This document shows, piece by piece, positions 3,626 to 52,423 of a stretch of 52,423 bases of DNA. The notes beneath the pieces were generated by a model, which worked only from the letters and a program-made list of their open reading frames with translations, was not told the DNA's origin and ran no database searches. Each line of letters begins with the position of its first letter. Position 1 is the stretch's first letter. The stretch is from Bacteroidales bacterium (lineage in GTDB: Bacteria > Bacteroidota > Bacteroidia > Bacteroidales > UBA7960). The translations under genes were made by a program, and so were the position numbers. Location: NCBI GenBank assembly GCA_012521995.1, contig JAAYLH010000054.1, positions 1-52,423 on the forward strand, written 5' to 3'.

Positions 3626-4960
3626 CTAATATAGTTTTTTTAGTTCAGCGCCTGTAAAATAATGGGCCAGGATGGCCTGATAAGAATACCCCCCGGCGCC
3701 CATCACGGCGGCGCCGATCTGGCAGAAGCCCACCCCATGGCCCCAGCCGGCCCCTTTCAGGGTAAACGATTGCGGAATGCCGTTCCGGTCCCTGCCCTTT
3801 TCGATCACGATGGCTGAACTGTAGAGGTGTGATGGCGACAAGGCCTTACGGATCTCGAGTTCCTTGCCGATGACGAAATTTCCCCGGGTTCCCCTGATCT
3901 CCATTTTTATCAGCCTTCCGGAGATGCCACGTTCAACGGGGACCAGATCGAGCACCTCCCCCACATCGACATTTACCCGGTCGCAAAGCAGCTCCTGCAA
4001 GCGCTGCTGGCTAAGGCTGGTTTCCCAGCGATAGAAATCCACGGTTTCCTGGTCGTAATCCTTTAGCACCTGCGAAAGGATCTCCTTGTCGCGGGTATTG
4101 CAAAAAGCAGGGGGTTGACCCAGGATCCACCGGCGGGCGGCCGGTTCCCGGGTCAGGTTCGTATCATAGCCTTCAGGGGGTTCAGGATTGTCTATCACCT
4201 TCTCCAGGTAAGGATGATGAACAGGTTCCCAAACATTTTCAAAACATTCGCTGATGCCGCCGCAGCTTTTTGAATAGCGCGCATCACAAATATCGTCCCC
4301 ATAGCTGAGCACCAGTCCCCGGGTGACGGCAATGGCTTCTTCAACCGCAAGGCTGGTCACATGGCTAATGCCCTGGTAGCGCTGGCAATGGTCGTCGGCA
4401 CACACATCAAAATGCTGGTGGTCTTCGCGGTCATACCAGCGGATGCGCTCTTGTGAGGTTTCAACGGAGGTTTGGTAAGATCCGGTATGTTTCAACTTTC
4501 TGCTTTTCTCCATCTGGGCCAGGAGCCAGGAACGGGACACCACGGCGTGGGACTTCAACAGTTCGGGCGAGGAAGTAGCGCTCATTTCGGAAGAGATCAC
4601 GCTGGTAAGATAGTCTTCCAGGTCAATGCTGTTGATGGCGGTCAGGTGACCAGCTTCGCGGATGATCTCCAGGCTTCCGCGAAAGCGCTGATCCTGTTTG
4701 CGTTCCCAATGGAAATTGATGCCGATGGTCACGTCAAGGAGGTCGAAGCTGGCAGTATCATAATCGAGGGGGTCGAAGCGCAGGGGCCATTCCGCCGGGA
4801 TACCTTTTCCTTCCACACTCAGCAATGGCTTATCGTCCAGGAGTTTCACGAAAGCCTCTCCCTCGAAAATTCTTCGTGAGTCCGTAAGGATGAATTTCCC
4901 ATTCAGACGAAATTTCACTTCGGGGGCAAAGAGAATGCCGACATTGATTACTGGCTCCAT
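3626..4960 (-). CDS. SpoIID/LytB-domain protein without signal peptide
   Basis: This 444-residue protein carries a SpoIID domain. SpoIID enzymes are lytic transglycosylases that cut glycan strands already stripped of stem peptides. The family acidic residue lies in SSEM (E125), followed by the usual LLKSHAVVSRSW helix. A His/Cys cluster (H182, H184, C188, H192, C193) resembles the zinc site of clostridial SpoIID, and the closing GWGHGVGFCQ is at 405-414. No signal peptide or membrane helix is present at the N-terminus. The ATG overlaps the end of the GNAT gene by 13 bp, and an in-frame TAA six codons upstream rules out a longer start. The protein is therefore predicted cytoplasmic, unlike typical exported SpoIID proteins. 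Its coupling with AmpG suggests work on imported glycan, which is inference. Confidence 0.85.
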   Translation of the reverse strand: MEPVINVGILFAPEVKFRLNGKFILTDSRRIFEGEAFVKLLDDKPLLSVEGKGIPAEWPLRFDPLDYDTASFDLLDVTIGINFHWERKQDQRFRGSLEIIREAGHLTAINSIDLEDYLTSVISSEMSATSSPELLKSHAVVSRSWLLAQMEKSRKLKHTGSYQTSVETSQERIRWYDREDHQHFDVCADDHCQRYQGISHVTSLAVEEAIAVTRGLVLSYGDDICDARYSKSCGGISECFENVWEPVHHPYLEKVIDNPEPPEGYDTNLTREPAARRWILGQPPAFCNTRDKEILSQVLKDYDQETVDFYRWETSLSQQRLQELLCDRVNVDVGEVLDLVPVERGISGRLIKMEIRGTRGNFVIGKELEIRKALSPSHLYSSAIVIEKGRDRNGIPQSFTLKGAGWGHGVGFCQIGAAVMGAGGYSYQAILAHYFTGAELKKLY

Positions 4961-6875: not shown

Positions 6876-8339
6876 TTATTTACGGTTCATGGCCATTCTT
6901 GCCCATAGTTCAATGGTACGGATTCTGTCCTTGTAAGTGTTGTGGTCATTCATTTTGACAATGTCGAGCGAGGCATCGGTATTGTCGTCCCAGCGACGGC
7001 AGAAATACAAGGGTTCATAAATGCGACCGATCTGGTAGTGGCGCGAGATGGCCAGTCCCAGGGCATAGTCTTCGCCATAGCTCACATTGGGCACCCTGAC
7101 CTGACGGAGGACGGGTGTGTAGAAGGCGCGCGGGGCGCCCAGTCCGTTGATGCGCAGGGCGTTGTTCCGGCCATTCTCAGGGGTCCATTCCCGGTGGTCA
7201 ATGATCCCCGGCGGGATTTCCTGGAGGTCGAAATTAACCATTTGGTAAGCCCCCACCACCATCGCGCAAAATTGCTCATAGAAAGCCTCCACGATCCTTT
7301 GCACCACCTCCTCGTCCATATAGAGGTCATCGCTGTCAAGCTGAACGGCAAACTTCCCGCATTGGGGATGAAAGACCCCTTCGTTCCAGCAGCCGCCAAT
7401 GCCCAGGTCATTCCTTTCGGGGATCAGGTGGATCAAGCGGTCATCTTCAGCGGCAAGCTTTTTCAGAAGCTCTGTGGTGCCGTCCGTGGAATGGTTGTCT
7501 ATCACGATCAGGTTAAAAGGGAAGCTTGTTTTTTGAATAAAGACGGATCGTACTGCATCTTCGATGGTCTTGACCCGGTTCCTTACAGGGATGATCACCG
7601 AGGCTTCCACAGGAAAACTTCCTTGCTCAAATTTCACAGGCTTAAAGGAAGGTTTCAGAAATCCACCAATGGCCTTCAGGTGGGTGGTACAGGCCTTCTC
7701 CATCTCGATCTGCACGGCCCTGTTGCGTGGATCCACATAGTCGAACATCTTTTCGCCCGAGCGGCGCGTGTCGGTCTCCTCCTCGGTGTATAAAAATTCG
7801 GGGATGCGGAAAAGCAGGTGTTTTTGAGAAATCCTCAGCCTCAGATCGTACAGCCCGGCAAACTCAAAATGATCCTTCATCCCAGAGGATGCTTCCTTCA
7901 GGGCTTCTGTCTGGAAGAGCAAGAGGGATCCGAAGTTAAAATCGTCGCGCAGGCTGCCTTCCTGATAATCGATCACGGGCAGGGGGGCCAACTTCCCTTG
8001 CTTCACCTGGTAATGGTCGGAATATAGAATCCCTGCCCCGGTATCCGTGGCTACCTGGAGCAAACGTTCGAGGGCAAAGGGGCCCAGGCGCAGGGGCAAG
8101 GTCTTGGTATAGACGAGTGTGAAGGGAGTCTGGCTCAGGCCCGCAATGGCTCTGACTCCGCGGGTAGAATGCAGGGAGGGCACTTCCACAAGAGTAACCC
8201 CTCCGGGCAGGTGGCCTAAAGGCTTATCACCCAACACCATCACTGTCTCAATTAAAGGCTGGGCCATCAGTTCTTCAAGGGTTCGCTTCAGGTCGGCCAC
8301 TTCACCGGCGGGTACAAAACAACTAATTTTCTTTTCCAT
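6876..8339 (-). CDS. Family 2 glycosyltransferase with degenerate N-terminal GT-like domain
   Basis: The predicted protein has 487 residues. The C-terminal half (about 245-460) is a GT-A/GT2 domain with VIIPVRNR (248-255), DNHSTDGT (281-288) and LDSDD (334-338) for nucleotide-sugar and metal binding. The N-terminal half (1-225) looks like a second, weakened GT-A domain with a YSDHY stretch at 106-110. There is no signal peptide or membrane helix. The open frame extends upstream to 8498, but I chose the ATG at 8339 because MEKKISCFVPAG begins a normal GT-like beta strand and the upstream residues look like translated leader. It is first in the minus-strand operon that ends with ampG. The acceptor is unknown. 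Confidence 0.75.
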   Translation of the reverse strand: MEKKISCFVPAGEVADLKRTLEELMAQPLIETVMVLGDKPLGHLPGGVTLVEVPSLHSTRGVRAIAGLSQTPFTLVYTKTLPLRLGPFALERLLQVATDTGAGILYSDHYQVKQGKLAPLPVIDYQEGSLRDDFNFGSLLLFQTEALKEASSGMKDHFEFAGLYDLRLRISQKHLLFRIPEFLYTEEETDTRRSGEKMFDYVDPRNRAVQIEMEKACTTHLKAIGGFLKPSFKPVKFEQGSFPVEASVIIPVRNRVKTIEDAVRSVFIQKTSFPFNLIVIDNHSTDGTTELLKKLAAEDDRLIHLIPERNDLGIGGCWNEGVFHPQCGKFAVQLDSDDLYMDEEVVQRIVEAFYEQFCAMVVGAYQMVNFDLQEIPPGIIDHREWTPENGRNNALRINGLGAPRAFYTPVLRQVRVPNVSYGEDYALGLAISRHYQIGRIYEPLYFCRRWDDNTDASLDIVKMNDHNTYKDRIRTIELWARMAMNRK

Positions 8340-8651: not shown

Positions 8652-8785
8652 CAAAGAAACGACATTCATTGATTTTGATTATCGGGGTTTGGGGTATTTT
8701 CAGGGGTTACCGAATTTAAAAAAGGCAGAATGTAAGGGGGACCCGTTTTTCAAAGCCCGGCTTCCGGGATACATGGAGGGAAGGC

Positions 8786-9637
8786 ATGATATTGATCGCC
8801 GACAGTGGATCAACCAAAACCAATTGGCACTTATCGGGTAAGGGCCGCCAGAAAAGCATTACCTGCCAGACCGCAGGCATAAACCCTTATTACCAGACCA
8901 AAGAAGAGATCCTGAATACCCTTTCGGAAGCTTCGGTGGTTCAGCAGGAGGGCATCCGTCAGATTCATTTTTATGGAGCAGGCTGTGCCAATCCTGAAAA
9001 GAATGCGGTTTTAGAGGGAGCCCTTCGTGCCTATTTTCAGGTGGATAAAATTGAGGTAACCAGCGATTTGCTGGCGGCAGCGCGTTCGCTGTGCAGGCGG
9101 GCAGAAGGGGTGGTTGCCATCCTTGGCACCGGCTCCAATTCAGGTTATTATGATGGCAGCATGATTCGCCAGCATGTTCCTCCCCTGGGTTTTATCCTGG
9201 GCGATGAGGGAAGCGGGGCGGTGATGGGCCGGCAGCTGGTATCCGACCTGCTGAAGAACCAGATGCCCGAATACCTGCAGGCACGGTTCCTTGAGATGTT
9301 TGGCCAAACCGCCGTTGACATCATGGAACAGGTATACCGCAAACCCTTTCCAAACCGATATCTTGCCTCTTTCACCCCTTTCCTGTCAAGGTATATTCAG
9401 GAAGAACCCGTGTATTCGCTGGTAAAAAACGCTTTCCTGTTTTTCTTCAAAAGAAATATTGATCAGTATCCACGTGCGCGTTATCTGCCCGTGCATTTTA
9501 CAGGCAGCATTGCATGGCATTTTTCGGCCGTTCTGAAAGAAGCGGCCAGGGAGTGTAGTTATACCCCGGGAGAAATTATCCAGGATCCCATGAAGGGGCT
9601 TATTGAATTTCACCGTAACTTTAACAGAAAGCTGTAA
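8786..9637 (+). CDS. BadF/BadG-type amino-sugar kinase (MurK/NagK-like)
   Basis: A 283-residue cytoplasmic ATPase of the BadF/BadG/BcrA/BcrD N-acetylglucosamine kinase family. The phosphate-1 loop is IADSGSTKTNW (4-14). GTGSNSG (114-120) and GDEGSGAVMGRQLV (139-152) follow, with a C-terminal FTGSIA adenosine-type motif. The ATG has a purine-rich GGAGGGAAGG 1 bp upstream. It lies 12 bp before murQ, the arrangement seen for murK-murQ in Tannerella forsythia, where MurK phosphorylates MurNAc and GlcNAc. It should convert imported MurNAc to MurNAc-6-P, the MurQ substrate. Family certain; MurNAc preference inferred from context. Confidence 0.85.
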   Translation: MILIADSGSTKTNWHLSGKGRQKSITCQTAGINPYYQTKEEILNTLSEASVVQQEGIRQIHFYGAGCANPEKNAVLEGALRAYFQVDKIEVTSDLLAAARSLCRRAEGVVAILGTGSNSGYYDGSMIRQHVPPLGFILGDEGSGAVMGRQLVSDLLKNQMPEYLQARFLEMFGQTAVDIMEQVYRKPFPNRYLASFTPFLSRYIQEEPVYSLVKNAFLFFFKRNIDQYPRARYLPVHFTGSIAWHFSAVLKEAARECSYTPGEIIQDPMKGLIEFHRNFNRKL

Positions 9638-9649
9638 TATTTCGTCTTC

Positions 9650-10495
9650 ATGGCCGAGATTGAAGGTAGTGGCAAATTCCAGTTAAGCATCACCGAGTCG
9701 CCATCCCAGTTTGAGAATCTGGAAAAGATGACGGTGAGTAAGTTGATCACCTCCATCAACAAGGAAGACGCCAAGGTGCACGTGGCGGTCAGGAAGGCCT
9801 TGCCCCAGATCGAAGCCTTGATTTGCAAGATCATTGAGCGGATGCAAGGCGGAGGTCGGATCTTTTATCTTGGTGCAGGCACCAGTGGACGTTTAGGGGT
9901 TTTGGATGCCTCTGAGCTGCCTCCCACCTTTGGGGCGCCCGAGGGGCTGGTGATCGGATTGATAGCAGGGGGCGATCAGGCTCTGCGTAAGGCTGTGGAG
10001 GCAGCTGAAGATGACCTGAACAAAGCCTGGGAAGAGCTGAAGGCAAGAGATATCAACAAGCTTGACACCGTTATTGGAATAGCTGCATCGGGCAGCACCC
10101 CCTATGTTGTGGGAGGGCTGCGCCAGGCCCGCGCTAACGGAATCCTGACGGGCTGCATCACCTGTAATCCCAACTCACTGGTTGCCAAGGAAGCCGAATA
10201 TCCCATTGAAGCCATTGTAGGTCCCGAGATCGTCACAGGCAGCACCCGCCTCAAAGCAGGCACCGCCCAGAAGATGATCCTGAATATGATCACCACCACC
10301 ATTATGATCAAGCTGGGCAGGGTAAAAGGCAACAAAATGGTGAACATGCAACTAACCAATCAGAAACTTGTACAGCGCGGGACACGGATGCTGATGGAAG
10401 AGCTGGGGTTGGAATATGAAGCAGCAAAAACCCTTTTACTGAAACACGGCTCGGTTAAAGATGCCTTGGAAGTAATCAGGCAAAAAAATGAGTAA
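9650..10495 (+). CDS. murQ: N-acetylmuramic acid 6-phosphate etherase
   Basis: MurQ cleaves the lactyl ether of MurNAc-6-P to give GlcNAc-6-P and D-lactate. The 281-residue protein has the SIS-domain sugar-phosphate loop GAGTSGRLG (75-83), DASELPPTFG (86-95) with the conserved glutamate E89, and VEAAEDD with E120; these match the two catalytic glutamates of E. coli MurQ. The C-terminal TLLLKHGSVKDAL helix is typical. An internal methionine at residue 27 (EKMTVSKL) is an alternative start, but the longer start is only 12 bp after the kinase stop and its N-terminus resembles other MurQ proteins. It forms the metabolic exit of the salvage pathway. Confidence 0.95.
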   Translation: MAEIEGSGKFQLSITESPSQFENLEKMTVSKLITSINKEDAKVHVAVRKALPQIEALICKIIERMQGGGRIFYLGAGTSGRLGVLDASELPPTFGAPEGLVIGLIAGGDQALRKAVEAAEDDLNKAWEELKARDINKLDTVIGIAASGSTPYVVGGLRQARANGILTGCITCNPNSLVAKEAEYPIEAIVGPEIVTGSTRLKAGTAQKMILNMITTTIMIKLGRVKGNKMVNMQLTNQKLVQRGTRMLMEELGLEYEAAKTLLLKHGSVKDALEVIRQKNE

Positions 10496-10563
10496 TATTG
10501 TTTTGAGGAAATAAAAAATAAACGCCGGATCATGCAAACCAAAAAACAACAAATGCTTTTATC

Positions 10564-13500
10564 ATGAAGAAGACTCTTGTTTTACTGGGCCTTATGCTCC
10601 TGATGACCGTCCAGTTGCTGGGCCAGGCGAGGCAGGTGACAGGGACGGTCACCGATGCTTTGGATGGCACCACCCTCATAGGGGTTACGGTTTTGATCAA
10701 GGGCACTACCACTGGGGCCACAACCGACATCAACGGCAGGTACCAGATCAACGCTTCGCCAGCGGATGTGCTGATCTTCCGTTTTGTGGGTATGGAATCC
10801 GTTGAGGAACAGGTAGGCGAACGCAGCGTCATTAATGTTGCGCTGGTTCCATCGGCCACCACCCTTCAACAGGTAGTGGTCACTGCCCTGGGAATTGAGC
10901 GAGAAGTACGGACCCTGACGTATAATGTGCAGAATATGAACTCGGAGGACATCCTTTCGTCGCGACAGGAGAACCTGGTTAATGCGCTTCAGGGAAGGGT
11001 TTCGGGGGTACAGATCACCTCTACAGGGGGTGCTCCCGGGGCAGCCTCAGAGATCATCCTGCGCGGAGCCACTTCCGTGGATGGGGAGAACCAGCCCTTA
11101 TTCGTCATCGACGGGATTCCCATTTCCAATGCCTCGGTCAGAGGGACCACAAACCGAGCGGCAGACATTAACCCCAGCGACATTGAGTCCATGTCGATTC
11201 TCAAGGGGGCGGCAGCCGCGGCCCTTTATGGGATTGACGCCGCCAACGGGGCCATTATCATCACAACAAAACGGGGTAAGGAAGGGGCCATCTCGGTTGG
11301 ATTATCCACCTCCACCACCCTTTCACAGGTGGGTCTTCTGCACCAGGTGCAAAATAACTATTCAACAGGATCAGCGGGGCTATTCAACCCCCGCACTTTC
11401 TCACACTGGGGCCCTCCCCTGCTCCGTAGCGACCACGCCTACGATAACCTGGGCAATTTTTTTGAAACAGGGATGGCCAATAAGGTAGATGCCAACGTCA
11501 GCGGGGGGACATCCAACATGACTTATTACCTGGCGCTTTCCAGTCTGGGGGATGACGGAATTGTGCCCAACACCTTTTACGGAAGAAACTCGGCCATGCT
11601 GACGGGGACCCTAAAAATTTCCCCAAAGATCTCATTGACGACTTCTTCCAGCATCATGAAAACCAATAACCAGACGGGGATTTTCAGCGCCAGCGGGGGC
11701 TGGTTGATGAATGTGTACCGCTGGCCACGCTGGGACAATATGGTGGATTACCTGAACACGGACGGCAGCGAACGCAATGTTTGGATCCCCTTGAGCGGCA
11801 ATCTGGCAGAAGCCCCTGACAACCCGATGTGGAGCGCTTATCACCAGGTGCGCAAAGACAATGTAAGCCGCAACATCAACTCCTTTAACCTTACTTACCA
11901 GCCTCTTGAATGGCTAACAGTAAACTATACTGCGGGGCGGGATTACTTCCAGCAGCACTACAAAGCCGTCAGCGAGCCAGGGTCGGCTGGATCGGCAGCC
12001 TATGAAGGTGCCATCAGCGAATTTGACAGGGAGAGCGAGAAGATCACCTCGACTCTGGTGGTGACAGCCGATTATGACTTCACGGATAAACTGCGGGTGA
12101 CAGCCCTTGCGGGACATAACCTGCAGTCGGACTTTGCACGCAACACCTTTGTGGAAGGAGAGCGTTTCCGCAACCCCACCCTGCATTCGATCAACAACTT
12201 ACGTGAGATACGAAACAGTCAGTCAACAGCAAACAGAAGGATCATCGGGGTGTTTGGAGACCTTACCATTGATTACGGCCGCTTCCTTGTCCTGGGAGTC
12301 ACAGGAAGGAATGACTGGTCTTCCACCCTTCCTTTTGCCAACCGTTCTTTCTTCTATCCTTCGTACAGTGCCGCCTTTATCTTCAGCGAACTGCTGGATG
12401 GGCAAATGGCAAGGGTCTTCTCCTTCGCCAAACTCAGGGCAAGCTTTGCCCAGGTAGGTAAGGATGCCCCGCCTCACCGCCTGACTCAAACCCTCGAGCA
12501 GTTTTACGGCATCGGGGGAGGCTGGAAAAACGGTGCTTTTGCAGGAAACCCCATCCTGAGGCCGGAAATCACAAAAGAAATAGAAATCGGGACCGATTTG
12601 CGTTTATGGAACGGGCTGTTTACCATTGACTTCACTTATTACCAGCGGGAATCGAATGACCAGATCATTCAGCCCAGGGTAACGCCTGTAACGGGGGCAA
12701 TTCTTCAAACCGTAAACTCAGGCTCGGTCGAGAACAAGGGTATAGAACTCCTTTTTGGCACCCGTATCTTAAAAACCGAGGATATTCACTGGGAAATTAC
12801 ACTAAACGGTTTTGGAAACCGCTCAAAACTCACCAAATTGTTCGGCGACCTGGTAGAATTTCCCGTAACCTATGGACAAGTTTCATCGCAGGCCATTGCC
12901 AGTTCGTGGCTGGGCGAGGCCTTGTTTGGCATTGTGGGAACCGATTACGAGCGGAATGATGAAGGACAGGTGATCGTTAATGAAGACGGCTACCCATTCA
13001 TTGACTCGGAGAAACGGTATATTGGCAACCGTGAGCCAAAGCTGTATTATGGCTTTTCAAATGATTTCCGTTACGGGAACCTTGAGTTTTCGTTCCTTGT
13101 CGACGGGGCTTATGGAGCGCAGTTGCTGAATGCCACGAGCCAGTTTCTGATCTCGAGCGGGAATCATGTCATGATGGAGGAATACCGTAATCAGGAATTT
13201 GTTTTTGAGGGGGTAGTGGAAATGCCTGACGGTTCTTATGCTGCCAACACCAAACCCATAGTGATGAATCAGACCTTTTTTAATAACTACTATATCCTTG
13301 CAGGTACCAATTTCGTGGAAGAGGTGGCTTGGGTTCGCCTCCGCAATGTGAGTCTGACGTATTATATTCCCAGGCAATGGCTCTCAAGGATAAGAATTCA
13401 GGATGCAAGCCTTAACGTGAACTTCCAGAACCTCTTGCTGCTGACCAATTATTCGGGCGGAGACCCTGAAGTGAACAATGCGGGGCCGGGCGGAGGAGCA

Positions 13501-17556: not shown

Positions 17557-20013
17557 ATGAAGAAAGTTCTACTGTTATTTTTCATTTCACATTTCTCATT
17601 TCTCATTTCATTAGGCCAACCCGGACGAGAAATGCGCGGCACCTGGTTTACTACAGCCTACCGTATTGACTGGCCGCCTCTTGGATCGGTACAATCTCAG
17701 CAGAGCAAGATGGTAAGCATGTTCAACCAGTTGGAAGAGGCCAACATCAATGCGGTATTTTTCCAGGTGAGGCCTTTTGCCGATGCTTTTTATAATTCTG
17801 CTTTTGAGCCCTGGTCGCACTTGCTGGGGTCATCCACAGCCGATCGCGGGGTGTATCCTGGTTATGACCCCCTTGCCCTGGCCATCAAAGAGGCGCATAA
17901 AAGGGGTATGGAATTGCACGTATGGCTGAATCCTTATCGCTTTGAGAGCAATGCAGGTGAGTTTGCAGGTCGGCCAGGAGATTATTCACAAACCCACCCC
18001 CACCTGATCATTACCTATAGCGACCGCACTTATTTCGACCCGGGACATCCTGAAACCACAAAGTTGATCAAGAATATCATTGCCGATATCATCAGTAAAT
18101 ATGATATTGACGGGGTCATTTTCGACGACTACTTCTACCCCTCAAACCTGCCCAACAGCTATGATCAGTCAACTTATGACACCTATGGCACCGCGGAATT
18201 CATCAGCCAGTACTACAGCGGGCCCCTGTTCCAGACCTATACCCGCGGTGATTTTCGCCGAGCATCGGTCAACAATATGATTCGCGAGGTAAACGATACC
18301 ATTAAGGAAATGAATCCAAACCTAATGTTTGGGGTAAGTCCTGCTGGAATTTATACCACCAATGCCCTTGTGGCCCAATACTACGAAACCACGCTCCCCC
18401 CCGGCATTTCGGGCAACAACAACTGGGCCACAATCAATTGTGACCCCCTGGCCTGGCTTAAAGAAGGAAGCATTGACTATATCTCTCCGCAGTTGTACTG
18501 GCAGATTGGCGGGAGCCAGGATTTTGTCACCCTGACTGAATGGTGGGGGTGGCAGGCTCAGCGCTATGGCCGTCACCATTATCCAAGCCTTGCAGCTTAC
18601 AGGATATATCCCAACAAATTTGAAGAAGCCCCTACAAACACAAAGAGTTGGGTTGAATTTGGCATTGAAGTTTACAACGAAATCCCTTACACCGATAAGA
18701 ACGACTGGCCTGTTTCCGAAATTGGAAATCAAATCATTGCCAACCGCGAGAGCGAATTTAACGATGGCTTGGGGCTCATTTTTTATAACACCAACAGTTT
18801 GCTGCGACCCGACAAGGACCTGGCAGGTTTCCTGGCAGAAGATTTGTTTTCCGAAAAAACGGTATTCCCTATCCTGGCCTGGACAGACAGCCCTGAACCA
18901 CAAATCCCTGAGCTCATGAGTGTAGCATCATTGGCAGAAGACCCCACGGTGGCCGTTCTCAGTATGGATTCGGAGTCAGACCGCTTTATCGTTTATGGCT
19001 GGAATGAACTGCCACCTCCTACCAAGGACAATGGAGCTGACTTTGTCCAGGTAGCTTTCAAGAATAATTTCAGCAGCATCCTTCATCGAAACTATCCCTA
19101 TTTTGCCGTGGCAGAATATTCAGGGGACCATTCCATTGGACCTTCATCCGATTACCTGGAATACAATCCCTTTGATGCCCCATCCCTGAACCTGTTCAAC
19201 GGAGCTACCGTATGCCAGGACGATGAGATCTTCTGGCAGGAGATGCCAGGGATAGGAGCATACCAATTGTTGTTATTTACCAATTCCAATGATAACCTGG
19301 TGGTGTACCAGAGCCCTGTCTTCGGGGAGCACTACTTCTCCATTGACCGCAACACCTTCGAGGGGCAGCAAACCTATTACTATCGTGTGATGGCCAGGGA
19401 TGGAACGCAGGGCTCTTATTCGGTACCCGATAATTTTGTTACAGGTTTCCCTTCTACGCCTTCGGTGAACTCGCCCCAGCAGGAGGACGAAAACGTTCCA
19501 TTGCTAGCTGTGGCCCAGTGGAGTTACCTTCCAGAAGCCACCAGCTATGAGCTGCAGGTGGCTCTTGACCCCACATTCTCAGAGGGATCATTGGTGGTAA
19601 ATGAAACGGGAATCACCCAAAACATCTTCAACCTCAGCCTCAGCAATGCCAATACCGATCATTATTTAAGAGTTGCTGGGGCCAACGCCTGTGGCTCGGG
19701 AAGATGGTCGCCAGTGATAAAATTCACTTCTGCTTCAGGCGTTTTTGTTGAAGACCTGTCCCATAAGGTGCTCGGGGCTTATCCCAACCCTTCGCAAAAC
19801 CGCACATATCTGCCTTATCCACAGGAGCTGGGGCAGCGCAACATATCTCTGTACAACACAAGCGGCCAGCGTGTCATGATGCTGGAACGGAATGAGATGA
19901 ACAAACTTGATGAAATAGACATCCGTAGCCTGTTGCCGGGTTTCTACACAGGGGTGGTGACCGCTTCAGGCAACACCCGTTTTACTTTTAAACTGGTCAA
20001 AATCAACCCATAA
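17557..20013 (+). CDS. GHL10 (DUF187, DigH-like) glycoside hydrolase with T9SS sorting domain
   Basis: This 818-residue protein has a signal peptide (1-20, ending FLISLGQ) and a GHL10 TIM barrel from about 24 to 420. Conserved pieces are REMRGTWFTT (24-33), NAVFFQVRPFADAFY (65-79), HVWLNPYR (121-128) and DGVIFDDYFYP (185-195). E. coli DigH (YddW), of this family, cleaves peptidoglycan glycan strands that lack stem peptides. The region from 540 to 720 contains fibronectin/Ig-like folds. The last 75-80 residues (LGAYPNPSQNRTYLP onward, RFTFKLVKINP at the end) are a type A T9SS sorting domain, so it is exported across the outer membrane. It fits outer-surface cleavage of denuded glycan in concert with the amidase two genes downstream. 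Domain assignment is firm; substrate is inferred. Confidence 0.85.
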   Translation: MKKVLLLFFISHFSFLISLGQPGREMRGTWFTTAYRIDWPPLGSVQSQQSKMVSMFNQLEEANINAVFFQVRPFADAFYNSAFEPWSHLLGSSTADRGVYPGYDPLALAIKEAHKRGMELHVWLNPYRFESNAGEFAGRPGDYSQTHPHLIITYSDRTYFDPGHPETTKLIKNIIADIISKYDIDGVIFDDYFYPSNLPNSYDQSTYDTYGTAEFISQYYSGPLFQTYTRGDFRRASVNNMIREVNDTIKEMNPNLMFGVSPAGIYTTNALVAQYYETTLPPGISGNNNWATINCDPLAWLKEGSIDYISPQLYWQIGGSQDFVTLTEWWGWQAQRYGRHHYPSLAAYRIYPNKFEEAPTNTKSWVEFGIEVYNEIPYTDKNDWPVSEIGNQIIANRESEFNDGLGLIFYNTNSLLRPDKDLAGFLAEDLFSEKTVFPILAWTDSPEPQIPELMSVASLAEDPTVAVLSMDSESDRFIVYGWNELPPPTKDNGADFVQVAFKNNFSSILHRNYPYFAVAEYSGDHSIGPSSDYLEYNPFDAPSLNLFNGATVCQDDEIFWQEMPGIGAYQLLLFTNSNDNLVVYQSPVFGEHYFSIDRNTFEGQQTYYYRVMARDGTQGSYSVPDNFVTGFPSTPSVNSPQQEDENVPLLAVAQWSYLPEATSYELQVALDPTFSEGSLVVNETGITQNIFNLSLSNANTDHYLRVAGANACGSGRWSPVIKFTSASGVFVEDLSHKVLGAYPNPSQNRTYLPYPQELGQRNISLYNTSGQRVMMLERNEMNKLDEIDIRSLLPGFYTGVVTASGNTRFTFKLVKINP

Positions 20014-33221: not shown

Positions 33222-33378
33222 CCTTTTCCAACAATTCAAAACACCCTTCCCCTTTCCCCTTTCCCCAGCAGCCTCTGCCAGGGAACGTTAAGGCTAAGCT
33301 ATTGCCCGTGGTTTTTATGCCAAACAGCACACCGGAAGGTTTTTCCTTCGTTTCAGAAACGTACAGACTTTTTAGTTT

Positions 33379-33440
33379 AACCGTAGTTTAACCGTACTTT
33401 AACCAATTGCAATTGGTTAAAGTACGGTTAAACTACGGTT
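33379..33440. repeat. Perfect 62-bp palindrome built from 11-bp repeats
   Basis: Both arms are 31 bp and exactly complementary, with no loop; the centre is CAATTG-like, between 33409 and 33410. Each arm is itself periodic: AGTTTAACCGT occurs at 33374-33384 and 33385-33395, then the variant ACTTTAACCA at 33396-33405. The 11-bp spacing is about one helical turn, so the site presents repeated half-sites on one face of DNA. Neither side carries a clear U-run and it is far from both genes' ends, so a simple terminator is unlikely. It may be a cluster of operator half-sites or a structured DNA site. Confidence 0.95.
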
Positions 33441-33635
33441 TATCTCTGGATTTGGATCAGATAAAAAGCAGAGAGAAATCCTCCTTGAATGAAAAGACAG
33501 GCAAAAAGAGAAGGAAGGGTATCATAATTGCAGGGGGAGGCCGGGTGGGGAGCGAATCGATTTTTTGCGGGATTGATTTCTTTTTATTCCAATTGTATCA
33601 AGCGACATTCAAAAAAATCAATTAAACTTGCAAAA

Positions 33636-45289: not shown

Positions 45290-46181
45290 TCGTTTCCTGA
45301 ACAACATACTGAGCATTCCCCTTGCGCTGCTGGTGCTGCTGCTTGCCCTGCTGCCATTCAGGTTGCTATATCTGTTCTCTCATTTGCTTTATTTCCTCCT
45401 GTGGCATGTTACGGGCTACCGAAAAAAGGTGGTGCTGGACAATTTAAAAAAGGCCTTTCCTGATAAGGAGGAAGAAGAAAGGCTTCAGATAGCACGTGGC
45501 TTTTACCGTCATCTTTCAGAACTGATCATGGAGTCGGTAGGACTGATGACGGCCCCGGCCTCAAGTATGCGCCGGCGTATCAAGCTGGATGAAGAGAGCA
45601 GCGAGCTTATGCGCCGCTATTATAAGGAAGGGCGCAGCGCCATACTGACCCTGGGGCATTACGGCAATTGGGAATGGATGGGAGCCGGCATAAACCTGGA
45701 AAACCCCGGGCAGTTGATTGCAGGCTACCGTCATTTACGTAACAAGGTATTCGACCAGATCATATACAGGACCCGCATGCGGTTTTACAGGCAACTGATT
45801 GGCTCAAAACAACTGGCGCGCAAAATGGTGGGCATGGCTGCTGCAAAAGAACCTGCTGTCTTCGCCCTGCTTGCCGACCAGTGGCCCCGTCCTGACACCG
45901 CTTTTTGGGTAAACTTCCTGGACAGGGAAACCCCGTTTTTCACGGGCCCCGAAAAACTGGCCCGCAAGCTGGGGCATGCCGTGCTGTTTTGTTCGATCCG
46001 CAAACAAAAGCGGGGCAGTTACCGGATCAACATCCAGGTCCTCACTGAAGACCCCAAGTCGCTGCCTCAGCAGGAGATTACCCAAGGCTATGCCACCCTG
46101 CTTGAGCAGGAGATCCGGCGCGCACCGCAGTACTGGCTATGGTCACACAGAAGGTGGAAGAAAGAAAAACAAGAGGTTTGA
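45276..46181 (+). CDS. LpxL/HtrB-like lipid A biosynthesis acyltransferase
   Basis: A 301-residue LPLAT-family enzyme with an N-terminal membrane helix (about 11-40). The acyltransferase motif H-x4-E is HYGNWE (near 128-133), followed by FDQIIYRTR, VFALLADQWPR and FFTGPEKLARKLG. Such enzymes add secondary acyl chains to lipid A or related lipids. It overlaps the GT4 gene start-to-stop. The stop codon lies in the first unit of a heptamer tract (46174-46201). Confidence 0.88.
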   Translation: MKRFNRFLNNILSIPLALLVLLLALLPFRLLYLFSHLLYFLLWHVTGYRKKVVLDNLKKAFPDKEEEERLQIARGFYRHLSELIMESVGLMTAPASSMRRRIKLDEESSELMRRYYKEGRSAILTLGHYGNWEWMGAGINLENPGQLIAGYRHLRNKVFDQIIYRTRMRFYRQLIGSKQLARKMVGMAAAKEPAVFALLADQWPRPDTAFWVNFLDRETPFFTGPEKLARKLGHAVLFCSIRKQKRGSYRINIQVLTEDPKSLPQQEITQGYATLLEQEIRRAPQYWLWSHRRWKKEKQEV

Positions 46182-46201
46182 GGTTGGGGGTTTGGGGTTT
46201 G
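46174..46201 (+). repeat. Heptamer tract (four units) at the acyltransferase stop codon
   Basis: Units AGGTTTG, AGGTTGG, GGGTTTG, GGGTTTG run in series from 46174. The TGA stop of the acyltransferase gene (46179-46181) is formed at the boundary of the first two units. No S23-type gene accompanies this tract. Confidence 0.85.
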
Positions 46202-48886: not shown

Positions 48887-51322
48887 ATGAATCAAGACCC
48901 CTATCAGGAGGAAAACCTAGACCTTAAGAACATCATTTTCAGATACCTGCCCTACTGGTACTTCTTTGCCCTCAGCCTTATCCTGGCCCTGGGGCTGGCT
49001 TTTTTTTACAACCGCCTGGCAGAGCCTGTGTACCGGGTCAACTCCACTGTGCTCATCAGCGACCGCAGCAAAGGCCTGGGACAGGGCGCCCTGCTGAGCG
49101 AGATGGACATCTTCGCCACCCGCACAGGTTTCCACGACCAGATCATCATTCTTCAATCCAACAAATTGATTGATAGCGTACTGAAAAGGATGGACATCGG
49201 GGTGTATTACTTTTCAACACACAGCATCCTGGGGACATACCGGAAAAATGAGTTGTACCAGGATACACCTTTCCGGGTCATTACCGACAAGGAAACAAGT
49301 CAGCCTTACGAAAAACAGTTTATCGTTAAGATCATTGATAACACAAGCTTTGAGATCGAAGCGGGCGATGATGACATTGCCCTTCCAAAAACCGTTTACC
49401 AGTTTGGGGAAATCGTCTCTGGCCGGCAGACCGTTGAAAACGCCCCTGCAAAGGATTTCCGGTTTCTTGTTGAGCTGACTGAAAAATTCAGCACAGAAAA
49501 CCACCAGGGTTCCACTTTTCTTTTTGTGATCCGCAACCCCCAGGCTCTGGTGGGCGAATATACCGGCCGTCTCAACGTAGAGCCTTACAACAAGGATGCC
49601 TGGATCCTGAATGTCTCCTTCCAGGCTACCCATCTGCAGCGTGCCATCGATTTCATCAATACCCTGACCAACTACTTTGTAGAGCTGGGCCTCACCGAGA
49701 AAAACCAGATCGCCCAAAACACCATTGAGTTCATCGATGAGCAGATCGCTATCACCACCGACTCGCTCTACCTTGCCGAGAGCAGCCTGCAGCGTTTCCG
49801 CCAGGAGAGCCAGCTGATGGATGCAAGCTATATGGCCAACCAATTGATGGGTGAACTCCAGGCCCTCGACGGCCAGAAGGCCATAGAGCAGGTAAAGCGG
49901 CAATATTACGACTACCTACAGGAATACCTTTCCAACGATAAGGACTTTTCCCAAGTGTTCGGCCCTTCTGCCCTGGGCATTGAAGACCGCCTGCTTAATG
50001 AGCTCATCACTGAGCTCAGCAAGCTCTATTCTGAGCGGGCCACCCTGATGCTCAGCACCACCGAGCGCAGCCCAATGATTCAGGCCCTCGACTTGAAGAT
50101 AGAACAGGCCCGCCGCACCCTTGAAGAAAACATCCGGAGTATCAAAAGCGCTTCCGACATCCTGCTTGCCGACCTCAACCGCCGCATAGGGCAGACGGAG
50201 CGCAGGGTCAGCCAACTGCCCAAAACAGAACGGGAGCTCATCGGCATCCAGCGCCGCTTCAACCTGAACGACGCCACCTACAACTACCTCCTTGAGAAAC
50301 GTGCCGAGGCAGGCATCGCCATGGCCTCAAACATCGCCGACAATCAGGTGGTGGACCCTGCCCGTTTTACAGGAAGGGTTGCCCCAAAAACCAGCAGAAA
50401 CTATGCCATTGCCCTAATGCTGGGTTTTGTGCTTCCATTGGGCTTCCTCATCCTGCGCGACTTCTTCAACACCAAGATCCAGGACAAGAAGGAAATCACC
50501 GATGCCCTGCCCTTCCCCGTGCTGGGCATCGTGCCCCACGATGAGAGCGCCTCCAAGTCGGAGGAGATCGACCTGGTGGTATACGACAACCCGCGCTCGC
50601 ACCTGGTGGAAGCTTTCCGTACCATGCGCGCCAACCTGCAGTTCATCATCCCCGGCGACCACAGCAAGGTGATCGTGGTCACCTCCACCCGCTCGGTGGA
50701 AGGCAAGAGCTTCACCGCCCTCAACTTGGCTTCGGTATTTGCCCTTTCGGGGAAAAAGACTGTGCTGGTGGGCGCCGATATGCGTAAGCCCAAGCTCTTC
50801 CGCGAGTTTGAGCTCAAACGCGAACCCGGCCTCTCCAACTACCTCATCGGACGCGAGCCCCTCGACAAGATACTGCAGCCCACCACCCAGGACGAGAACC
50901 TCTTTGTGGTCACAGCGGGGCCCGTTCCTCCTAACCCCACTGAGCTGCTCGAAACCAAAGCCATGGAGACCCTGCTGGCAGAGCTGAAAACACGCTTCGA
51001 CTACATCATCATCGACACCCCGCCCGTTGGACTGGTCCCCGATGCCATGGCCCTGATGAAACAGGCCGACACCACCCTCTATGTTATCCGACAGCACTTT
51101 ACCGACCGCTCCGCCCTCGACTTCATCCGCGAATTCTCTGAAAAGACCGGCATCAAAAACATCTGCATCGAAATCAACGACATGGAAGCCACCAAACTCG
51201 GCGCCCGCTACGGCTATGGCTACGGCTACGGCTATGGCTACGGCTATGCCGAAGAAGAAGCCCAGGTCGACCAGGGCCTGCTGGGAAGATGGAAGGACAG
51301 GATGAAGAACGGGAAGGGTTAA
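48887..51322 (+). CDS. Wzc-like chain-length regulator and tyrosine autokinase
   Basis: This 811-residue inner-membrane protein has helix 1 (about 18-40), a periplasmic Wzz domain with coiled-coil region (about 240-480), helix 2 (about 505-527, NYAIALMLGFVLPLGFLILRDFF) and a cytoplasmic BY-kinase domain. The kinase has Walker A TSTRSVEGKSF (about 602-612), Walker A' VLVGADMRKPK (about 627-637) and Walker B IIIDTPPVG (about 707-715). The C-terminal tail (about 775-787) is a tyrosine cluster of seven Tyr alternating with Gly. It sets polysaccharide chain length and assembly with the Wza-like protein. The stop lies at the edge of the S23 inverted-repeat unit. Confidence 0.93.
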   Translation: MNQDPYQEENLDLKNIIFRYLPYWYFFALSLILALGLAFFYNRLAEPVYRVNSTVLISDRSKGLGQGALLSEMDIFATRTGFHDQIIILQSNKLIDSVLKRMDIGVYYFSTHSILGTYRKNELYQDTPFRVITDKETSQPYEKQFIVKIIDNTSFEIEAGDDDIALPKTVYQFGEIVSGRQTVENAPAKDFRFLVELTEKFSTENHQGSTFLFVIRNPQALVGEYTGRLNVEPYNKDAWILNVSFQATHLQRAIDFINTLTNYFVELGLTEKNQIAQNTIEFIDEQIAITTDSLYLAESSLQRFRQESQLMDASYMANQLMGELQALDGQKAIEQVKRQYYDYLQEYLSNDKDFSQVFGPSALGIEDRLLNELITELSKLYSERATLMLSTTERSPMIQALDLKIEQARRTLEENIRSIKSASDILLADLNRRIGQTERRVSQLPKTERELIGIQRRFNLNDATYNYLLEKRAEAGIAMASNIADNQVVDPARFTGRVAPKTSRNYAIALMLGFVLPLGFLILRDFFNTKIQDKKEITDALPFPVLGIVPHDESASKSEEIDLVVYDNPRSHLVEAFRTMRANLQFIIPGDHSKVIVVTSTRSVEGKSFTALNLASVFALSGKKTVLVGADMRKPKLFREFELKREPGLSNYLIGREPLDKILQPTTQDENLFVVTAGPVPPNPTELLETKAMETLLAELKTRFDYIIIDTPPVGLVPDAMALMKQADTTLYVIRQHFTDRSALDFIREFSEKTGIKNICIEINDMEATKLGARYGYGYGYGYGYGYAEEEAQVDQGLLGRWKDRMKNGKG
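51209..51247 (+). repeat. Hexanucleotide repeat coding the Wzc tyrosine tail
   Basis: TAY-GGC codons alternate seven times (TAC, TAT, TAC, TAC, TAT, TAC, TAT with GGC between). The 6-bp unit keeps the frame if its copy number changes, so tail length can vary without loss of function. The mixture of TAT and TAC shows it is not freshly expanded. Confidence 0.9.
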
Positions 51323-51323
51323 T

Positions 51324-51372
51324 GGTTTGGGGTTTGGAGTTTGGAGTTTGGGGTTCGGAGTTAAGGGCTTGG
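51324..51372 (+). repeat. Heptamer tract (seven units) left of the S23 gene
   Basis: Units GGTTTGG, GGTTTGG, AGTTTGG, AGTTTGG, GGTTCGG, AGTTAAG, GGCTTGG fill 51324-51372. The right end of the unit has three such units in the opposite orientation (51833-51853), so the inverted repeats are built from the heptamers. Confidence 0.9.
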
Positions 51373-51436
51373 AATTTGCATTGGTTGAGAAAATATCGTA
51401 AATTTCTGTCCCGTTGAAAAAACCGAAATTGCTCCA

Positions 51437-51829
51437 ATGAAAATCGAACGGTTTGAGGATCTGGAGATTTGGCAGCAGGCGAGGGTTATTGCAAGGCAGG
51501 TTTTTGAAATAAGCCAGAACTTGCCATTTTCTAAAGATAATAAGTTCAAAGATCAGATCAGGGATTCTTCTGGTTCAATTATGGACAATATTGCAGAAGG
51601 TTTTGGCAGAGGTGGCAACAAAGAATTCGTTCAATTTCTATCCATTGCCAAGGGATCGAACGATGAAACACGATCCCAGGTTTACCGAGCATTTGATTAC
51701 CAATACATTGACGAGGCGACAAAAAACGAGCTTGTGGAAAAATCCGTTCAGCTTTCAAAAAAAATCAGCAGTTTCATCCAATACCTTAAAAAATCAACCT
51801 ACCGGGGCCCTAAATTCCCAATTCAATAA
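51437..51829 (+). CDS. Four-helix-bundle protein of the S23/IVS family
   Basis: The 130 residues match S23-type proteins: FEDLEIWQQARVIARQVFEIS near the start, DQIRDSSGSIMDNIAEGFGRGGNKEFVQFLSIAKGSNDETRSQVYRAFDYQYI in the middle, and a helical end (about KISSFIQYLKKS). The family forms pentameric four-helix bundles and includes the Avd accessory protein of diversity-generating retroelements and proteins encoded in rRNA intervening sequences. The biochemical role is unknown. No reverse transcriptase or rRNA is nearby. Base use is more AT-rich than wzc, which is consistent with a separate origin. Confidence 0.88.
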   Translation: MKIERFEDLEIWQQARVIARQVFEISQNLPFSKDNKFKDQIRDSSGSIMDNIAEGFGRGGNKEFVQFLSIAKGSNDETRSQVYRAFDYQYIDEATKNELVEKSVQLSKKISSFIQYLKKSTYRGPKFPIQ

Positions 51830-51853
51830 ACACTTAACTCCTAACCCCAAACC

Positions 51854-52366
51854 ATGCCCCACAAATGGTATGCCATCTACACGCGTTCCCGTTATGAAAA
51901 ACGGGTGGAAAAATTCCTCAGGGAGAAGGAGGTGGAAGTGTACCTGCCGTTGATGCGGGTATTCCGGCGATGGAGCGACAGGATGAAACGTGTGGAGGTG
52001 CCCCTGTTCAACTCCTACCTTTTTGTCAGGACACACCCCTCCGACCAGCGACATTATTACAATATCTTGCAGACCCCCGGCGTTGTGCGTTTCATCACCT
52101 TCGAGGGGCAGCCCGTGCCCGTGCCCGACCACCAGATAGACGCCCTTCAGCGCCTCTCGGCCGAAGGCTACGACCTAGAGCCCGCTGATAAACCCCTCAC
52201 CCCCGGCACACCCGTAGAGATCAAACAAGGCCCGCTGAAAGGCATCCGCGGAGAAGTCCTTTCCGCAGGTACCAATAAATTTCTTATCATCCAGATCGAC
52301 TCACTGGACAAATCCATCCAGGTGAAGATCCCTCCAGCCTTAGTAGAGCCCACAAAAGAGGTTTAA
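51854..52366 (+). CDS. UpxY/RfaH-like NusG-family transcription antiterminator
   Basis: This 170-residue protein has an NGN domain (about 4-105: WYAIYTRSRYEKRVEKFLREKEVEVYLPLMRVFRRWSDRMKRVEVPLFNSYLFVR) and a C-terminal KOW domain (about 118-165: GTPVEIKQGPLKGIRGEVLSA). NGN proteins of this type bind RNA polymerase at the leader of capsule loci and allow passage through terminators, as UpxY proteins do in Bacteroides. It is the fourth gene of the polysaccharide operon rather than the first, as is usual in Bacteroides, and further polysaccharide genes probably follow past the window. Its start overlaps the inverted repeat and its stop lies in a heptamer tract. Confidence 0.9.
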   Translation: MPHKWYAIYTRSRYEKRVEKFLREKEVEVYLPLMRVFRRWSDRMKRVEVPLFNSYLFVRTHPSDQRHYYNILQTPGVVRFITFEGQPVPVPDHQIDALQRLSAEGYDLEPADKPLTPGTPVEIKQGPLKGIRGEVLSAGTNKFLIIQIDSLDKSIQVKIPPALVEPTKEV

Positions 52367-52423
52367 GGTTTAAGGTTCAAAGTTCAAGGACTTGTCCGCT
52401 AGCCAGCGGATTCAAGGTTTAAG
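52359..52423 (+). repeat. Heptamer tract at the upxY stop codon, with hairpin
   Basis: AGGTTTA, AGGTTTA, AGGTTCA, AAGTTCA, AGGACTT run from 52359 to 52393; the TAA of upxY (52364-52366) is at the first junction. TCCGCT-AGCC-AGCGGA (52395-52410) makes a perfect 6-bp stem and AAGGTTTAAG resumes at 52414. The tract continues past the window edge and may begin another unit like the S23 one. Confidence 0.85.

Follow-up and report, generated by a model that had tools for sequence, protein, structure and literature searches.

An S23 gene between matching heptad arms at a wzc-upxY junction of a Bacteroidales genome: a probable compact mobile unit built like the rRNA intervening sequences

Reports of S23 proteins in ribosomal RNA (rRNA) intervening sequences go back to the early 1990s. 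The intervening sequence (IVS) of Coxiella is described as containing an S23 open reading frame (ORF) and complementary ends, as being excised by RNase III and as having been transferred horizontally by inference, and its heptads (GACAGAT) vary between strains (PMC4990558). The function of S23 was called unknown in the same 2016 paper, in which the structure 2gsc is reported as a homopentameric ring (PMC4990558). S23 is also related to Avd of the diversity-generating retroelements (PMC10053308), both belonging to the same four-helix-bundle superfamily, and its presence in rRNA insertions of Candidate Phyla Radiation (CPR) bacteria and in cas loci has already been published. The element considered here is a 0.53-kb unit, consisting of an S23 gene between inverted repeat arrays (the arms), at the junction of two protein-coding genes of a Bacteroidales bacterium (contig JAAYLH010000054.1). 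The 52,423 nt analysed, referred to below as the window, are one entire contig; the draft genome to which it belongs measures 3.26 Mb and gave six S23 matches.

The unit (51322-51855) fits exactly between its two host genes, the names of which, wzc and upxY, are those of the initial annotation. The wzc stop codon TAA occupies positions 51320-51322 and the upxY ATG begins at 51854; one base is shared with the stop codon and two with the start codon. The features are the following.

48887-51322, + strand: upstream host gene, wzc-type chain-length determinant/tyrosine kinase with Wzz, GNVR and AAA_31 domains and a Gly-Tyr tail
51322-51378, + strand: 5' arm, an imperfect heptad array (GTTTGGG/GTTTGGA/GTTCGGA/GTTAAGG), G-rich and C-poor, starting on the final A of the wzc TAA
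51437-51829, + strand: S23 (four helix bundle protein) ORF of 130 aa (PF05635, TIGR02436)
51828-51855, + strand: 3' arm, in which the 5' heptads recur as their reverse complement; it overlaps the stop codon of S23 and the first two letters of the upxY ATG
51854-52366, + strand: downstream host gene, NusG-like antiterminator (PF02357 NusG, E 2.7e-24)

The ORF matches PF05635 (23S_rRNA_IVP) with an E-value of 1.1e-33 and 116 bits (curated cut-off 33.8) and TIGR02436 with 108.9 bits (curated cut-off 24). Searched against the PDB (E up to 0.01), the S23 sequence gave 2gsc as its single match. Tandem Repeats Finder places the left array at 51324-51378 with a period of 7/14, and the arms pair in two registers, 51322-51349 with 51828-51855 (28 nt, 86% complementary) and 51346-51370 with 51828-51852 (25 nt, 88%). 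The arm score of 35 was reached by none of 2000 dinucleotide-preserving shuffles (mean 16, maximum 30), which rules out a chance inverted repeat. The initial annotation had described terminal inverted repeats matching at 19/20 and 18/19 positions, and these were reproduced exactly; its S23-type gene in an inverted-repeat unit, set precisely between the wzc stop and the upxY start, is confirmed by the PF05635 match, the coordinates and the shuffles, and the host site is indeed a coding operon. In Pfam, S23 was the sole match of the unit, with no transposase, integrase or nuclease domain recognised, and two further ORFs of at least 60 aa overlapping S23 (51591-51953, + strand; 51361-51549, - strand) matched nothing. 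An Rfam search gave no match anywhere in the window, and no rRNA residence is apparent for the unit.

The likeness to the rRNA intervening sequences of Coxiella and Leptospira, pointed out from the start, is well supported: both have an S23 ORF in sense orientation, complementary ends able to form a stem, heptamers beside the ORF, a sporadic distribution and horizontal transfer by inference (PMC4990558). The sizes are about 0.43 kb for the Coxiella IVS and 0.53 kb for the window unit. Of the features that define an IVS, complementary ends and heptads beside the ORF are present in the unit while insertion in rRNA is lacking, since the IVS sits in a 23S rRNA gene and the window unit at a junction of protein genes. 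The unit is built like an IVS yet falls outside the rRNA definition, and the setting between protein genes would be the new part. By analogy, RNase III excision, known for the Coxiella IVS, is possible in the window unit. In the open-access literature, which lacks most subscription journals, no arm-S23-arm units between protein genes, nor their transfer, were found.

The unit can also be compared with other known elements. Insertion sequences and transposons have fixed terminal inverted repeats common to their copies, whereas the arms of S23 units vary by locus, and no transposase was recognised in the window unit. Homing elements include group I introns, inteins and free-standing homing endonucleases. 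A likeness to them appears in one unit of another genus (G115, at the junction called S2 below), which seems to have entered a site also occupied in related species without bringing its flanks along; the window unit differs from them in that no nuclease or splicing domain is recognised and S23 is a four-helix bundle. REP (repetitive extragenic palindromic) sequences and MITEs (miniature inverted-repeat transposable elements) are short intergenic repeats, some of them in inverted pairs. Heptameric intergenic repeats have been described in Xanthomonas (GGGAATC; PMC4692102) and in Beggiatoaceae (TAACTGA; PMC4679880); the term S23 does not occur in the main texts of these two papers, whereas each S23 unit has its own repeat plus a gene.

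Armed S23 genes turned out to be widespread. For each S23 gene, the best inverted match between its two flanks was compared with that of mismatched pairs of loci, with a fixed arm-score threshold of 27; the detector misses arms overlapping the S23 coding end, as at locus L005 (score 16), where matching heptads can be made out by eye. Within the GTDB family, S23 was present in 31 of 47 genomes and 56 of 69 usable loci exceeded the 95% quantile of the null (89 S23 places, 73 scored, four dropped for cut flanks), which settles in the negative whether most S23 genes of relatives lack the repeats. In a sample of the phylum, 90 of 118 genomes contained S23, and among the matches listed, 30 loci, one per genome, were tested: 19 exceeded their own 95% null and 14 the fixed threshold. 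A sample of many phyla (the best 80 of 584 relatives plus 10 of 23 plasmid records, all 90 scored) gave 59 of 90 loci at threshold against 2.7% of mismatched pairs, with 29 of 49 Bacteroidota-titled loci and 30 of 41 others; this split follows record titles, the 49 including one Balneolaceae and the 41 including Balneolales, Ignavibacteria, one archaeal record and one unassigned metagenome-assembled genome. Control genes, longer ORFs (130-900 aa) picked mechanically, reached the threshold in only 5/102 cases (Fisher test against 59/90, 1.6e-20). The idea that the unit is a local curiosity of this genome is rejected by all three samples, and the 'small family' initially proposed was not borne out, as armed S23 units occur in many phyla.

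In the pooled loci, matching arms were found in 130 of 187 (two of the 90 many-phyla loci being omitted for a short frame). The repeat sequences vary widely among loci, while both arms of one locus match. G exceeds C in 121 of the 130 5' arms; a best period of 7 or 14 was obtained for 87 and one of 8 for 31, and the 3' arm starts at a median of 11 nt downstream of the S23 stop. An Rfam search of 20 S23 loci, mainly from other phyla, gave no match, and one S23 query against 50,697 phage records gave no hit at 1e-5. On three cyanobacterial plasmids (L307, L308, L309), S23 lies between cas genes, twice as cas6-S23-cas4 and once as cas10-S23-cmr3, with all three arm scores over threshold.

The arms go with their S23 gene, also to unrelated places. 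Over 2393 pairs without DNA-level flank similarity, the more alike two S23 proteins are, the more alike are their arms (Mantel rho 0.206, 0/1000), and the same holds in the many-phyla sample by itself (rho 0.158, 0/1000); five of the six pairs with at least 65% S23 amino acid identity have closely similar arms. Eight related S23 pairs probably occupy different sites because none of their flanking proteins match (0/8, some flanks being short).

The occupancy of fixed junctions could be followed in another Bacteroidota genus, in which eight species share one operon, presumably of phenylacetate type (genes named from the sequence), with four S23 junctions (S1-S4). Each is filled in some species and empty in others, and at two of them some species have a different unit. 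A thiolase and a paaY-like gene border S2. No unit is present there in genomes G111 and G165, with 12 nt between the anchors; of the six occupied sites, those of G146, G100, G072, G164 and G115 contain related units, and that of G084 has another S23 with other, self-matching arms. At S1, G115 lacks a unit and the other species have two unit lineages, each with its own arm sequence (G146 and G165; G100, G072, G084, G164 and G111). At S3, scored in all species but G115, G146 and G165 have no unit and that of G084 is internally deleted; S4 is empty in five of the eight species, with spacers so unlike between alleles that no clean empty site is available. The genes on both sides of occupied junctions stay open, as judged by eye, and the S3 3' arm encodes the start of the next protein. 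Two loci of this genus are worth recording. At S4 of G111 (L140), the 3' arm is expanded to many perfect CTCCTGAA octamers and the 5' arm is eroded, which suggests that the two arms can drift apart. In group E of G146 (L150), a remnant resembling the 5' arm of other species (as in G111, L141) adjoins the arm of the present unit, which suggests that a new unit took the place of a former one beside its old arm.

Across orthologous lineages, a species' own arms match each other better than cross-species arms (1/5000; S2 alone, p 0.017), the advantage being positive in S1, S2, S3, S4 and C. In the same genus, the ratio of nonsynonymous to synonymous substitution rates (dN/dS) of S23 was 0.03-0.15 in seven of eight pairs (the eighth was not computable, and dS is near saturation in several), which indicates that S23 is under purifying selection.

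The clearest sign of movement comes from S2 of G115. The whole unit is 90.4, 92.3, 91.8 and 87.7% identical to those of its distant congeners G146, G164, G100 and G072, respectively, compared with 68.8-70.5% for the 600 nt upstream and 78.6-81.0% for the 500 nt downstream. In 50-nt windows, median identity is 70% upstream (54-88), 92% in the unit (80-100) and 78% downstream (70-94), and the jump coincides with the unit edges. At third codon positions, used to remove the effect of protein constraint, identity is 77-84% in S23, 44-46% in the upstream gene and 46-54% in the downstream gene. Because S23 so exceeds both neighbours (44-54%), this unit appears to have been transferred alone, without the neighbouring genes. 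It is the sole S23 match of that genome and its S23 carries a nonsense codon. Weaker support comes from group A, where S23 (96.3-99.4%) exceeds the flanks (89.4-94.9%) in all three comparisons, and from group B, where it does so in two of three (99.7 and 96.4% against 89.6-93.0%).

The unit is very probably a compact mobile DNA element made of arm, S23 gene and arm. The junction occupancy and the unit-only transfer at S2 support, in the other genus, the DNA-level mobility that the initial annotation had considered, and we infer it for the window's own copy. The occupancy patterns are best read as units that spread horizontally, enter the same gene junction in relatives in a homing-like manner and get replaced by a different unit; they would decay through nonsense mutation, internal deletion or arm erosion. 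Since the unit lies between a stop and a start codon and mostly in sense orientation, it is probably co-transcribed with the operon, leaving the neighbouring genes open. As for the mechanism, S23, by homology a pentameric ring, would bind the single-stranded form of its own arm repeats and promote annealing of the arms to the target junction or to a resident arm, host replication and recombination doing the cutting and copying. Such binding is suggested mainly, though not proved, by arm sequences that vary in step with the S23 lineage, and an active role of S23 on its own arms is put forward tentatively, at slightly less than even odds. The favoured explanation as a whole, a mobile unit with this S23-arm mechanism, is given a probability of about 0.6.

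Several observations weigh against this explanation. The support comes from comparing sequences, no movement having been seen directly, and for unit-only transfer it relies chiefly on one species and one junction, G115 S2; the third group B comparison is reversed (S23 87.9%, flanks about 92%). Arms fall below threshold at 57 of the 187 pooled loci, the arm-S23 correlation is modest (rho 0.16-0.21), and groups A, B and D show no own-arm advantage over cross-species arms. Nuclease, transposase and integrase all went unrecognised in the unit by Pfam, and no target-site duplication is readable, the spacers of filled and empty junctions being too diverged. Short empty junctions exist in the other genus, but a clean empty wzc-upxY site was not found among 27 upxY loci, of which only L049, from the same genus as the window, has wzc upstream, with a spacer of about 300 nt (by eye), no S23 match and N runs nearby.

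The unit could alternatively be mobile with S23 as a passenger, spreading through normal uptake followed by recombination, homologous or microhomology-based, for which the arms offer short homologies, S23 serving another host function. The lack of a recognised recombination enzyme would agree with this, same-junction replacement fits allelic exchange, and the G115 unit has a nonsense codon in its S23. However, the G115 flanks are 69-81% identical and the jump falls at the unit edges; the arms also follow the S23 protein across phyla (Mantel 0/1000), though shared descent of the unit could suffice for that. A passenger S23 is therefore considered rather unlikely. It is most improbable that S23 is an immobile, ordinary operon gene with repeats born by slippage: some bacteria are rich in heptameric repeats (PMC4692102) and S23 is under purifying selection, but own-arm matching far exceeds that of control genes, and neither presence, absence and replacement at fixed junctions nor the G115 S2 transfer is expected of such a gene. 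Nearly as improbable is retro-mobility, in which S23 would act like Avd together with a trans-acting reverse transcriptase. Sense orientation prevails, and the Avd homology (PMC10053308) is echoed by a paralogue in the window's genome (L007:8732-9103) that matches the Avd model at E 1.4e-07 with 31.8 bits, below the cut-off of 80. A diversity-generating retroelement nevertheless needs a reverse transcriptase, and RVT_1 was unmatched in 8 of 11 S23-bearing genomes, including the window's own (G000, a 97.8% complete draft), which rejects an obligatory resident reverse transcriptase.

An RNA-level element, compatible with mobility, is the remaining alternative: the arms would pair in the mRNA, RNase III would cut the stem and loop out S23, and pairing would be under selection. 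RNase III does cut the Coxiella IVS (PMC4990558), the predicted RNA fold of the window contains the arm stem (z -2.4, 0/100 shuffles as stable), and sense orientation predominates. Among 57 loci with both neighbours called, S23 is sense to both in 39, antisense to both in 4 and between divergent or convergent genes in 14, i.e. 39 sense to 4 antisense in the 43 with co-directional neighbours; orientation was assigned by an ORF heuristic, 16 of 73 loci having no call on one side. Such a bias is also as expected for a promoterless operon unit or for selection against antisense copies. Mismatches between arms show no bias towards those preserving G-U pairing in the sense RNA (73 preserve it, 92 break it; p 0.16), and arms pair no better in sense than in antisense RNA (36 against 34 of 70, p 0.88), although arm-to-arm conversion could mask selection. 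RNA pairing as the force keeping the arms matched is thus rejected, and because both tests are negative, arm-to-arm conversion or descent from a single source is favoured over RNA selection. RNA processing of the unit is possible, and an RNA-level element under such selection is judged unlikely.

The window ends inside another unit, and its last 60 or so bases also open contig C71 (L007:1-12915), the overlap of both contigs being judged by eye.

52359-52423, + strand: opening part of the 5' array of the following element (TTCAAGG/TTTAAGG heptads), cut short by the contig end

L007 contains capsule-type sugar genes (named by eye), many gene gaps holding an insert with its own repeat type. The inserts are three complete S23 units and one more cut by the contig end, plus GxxExxY, DUF559 and HicAB-like genes. 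The S23 unit at 239-649, with which C71 goes on after the shared array, has arms of 57 nt that are 100% complementary; the others, at 7390-7764 and 8732-9103, have hexamer and octamer repeats, respectively. Both GxxExxY copies (1910-2218, 10290-10631) have one internal stop each, the DUF559 gene (3947-4363) has an arm pair of 93 nt (88%), and the small HicAB-like genes were named by eye, the gene at 12297-12695 having no NCBIfam match. At L007:3718-3777, a single heptad array shifts from the window-type GTTTGGG to the GTTCAAG of the next unit, which may point to kinship between the two. In the window, abutting inverted arms of 36 nt (94%, 11-mers, AGTTTAACCGT) with no gene between them occur at 33374-33445, possibly a cargo-free unit or a terminator, and solo heptad arrays lie at 46173-46201 (GAGGTTT) and 17577-17610 (CATTTCA), with no S23 nearby in a genome search.

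The architecture may extend to other cargoes. GxxExxY (TIGR04256) loci of the same genomes (L195-L224) have matching inverted arms in 23 of 28 cases, against 11% of mismatched pairs, and their repeats are about 9-10 nt by eye (CGCAAAG, CACGAAT and CACAGAG cores) compared with 7-8 nt for S23. DUF559 is a weak third case, 5 of 9 loci reaching threshold where mismatched pairs do so in 18%. Partial or fused copies were omitted from both counts (28 of 30 and 9 of 14 loci used).

By analogy, the S23-bearing rRNA intervening sequences look like rRNA-resident relatives of the mobile unit. A broader proposal, plausible but rather less than an even bet, is that most bacterial S23 genes, the rRNA ones included, belong to a single class of minimal homing element. 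Such elements, about 0.5 kb long, would pass from one gene junction to another with no need of a transposase, a nuclease or a reverse transcriptase, relying on a small ring protein that recognises its own heptad or octad arms, and parallel GxxExxY classes would have the same architecture with another repeat code. If the rRNA units are indeed special cases, their origin, heptads, complementary ends and patchy distribution would share one explanation. The job of S23 would become a testable question of own-arm recognition and unit movement, and operon genes annotated as 'four helix bundle protein', including the three between cas genes, may be mobile DNA rather than parts of the pathways in which they lie.

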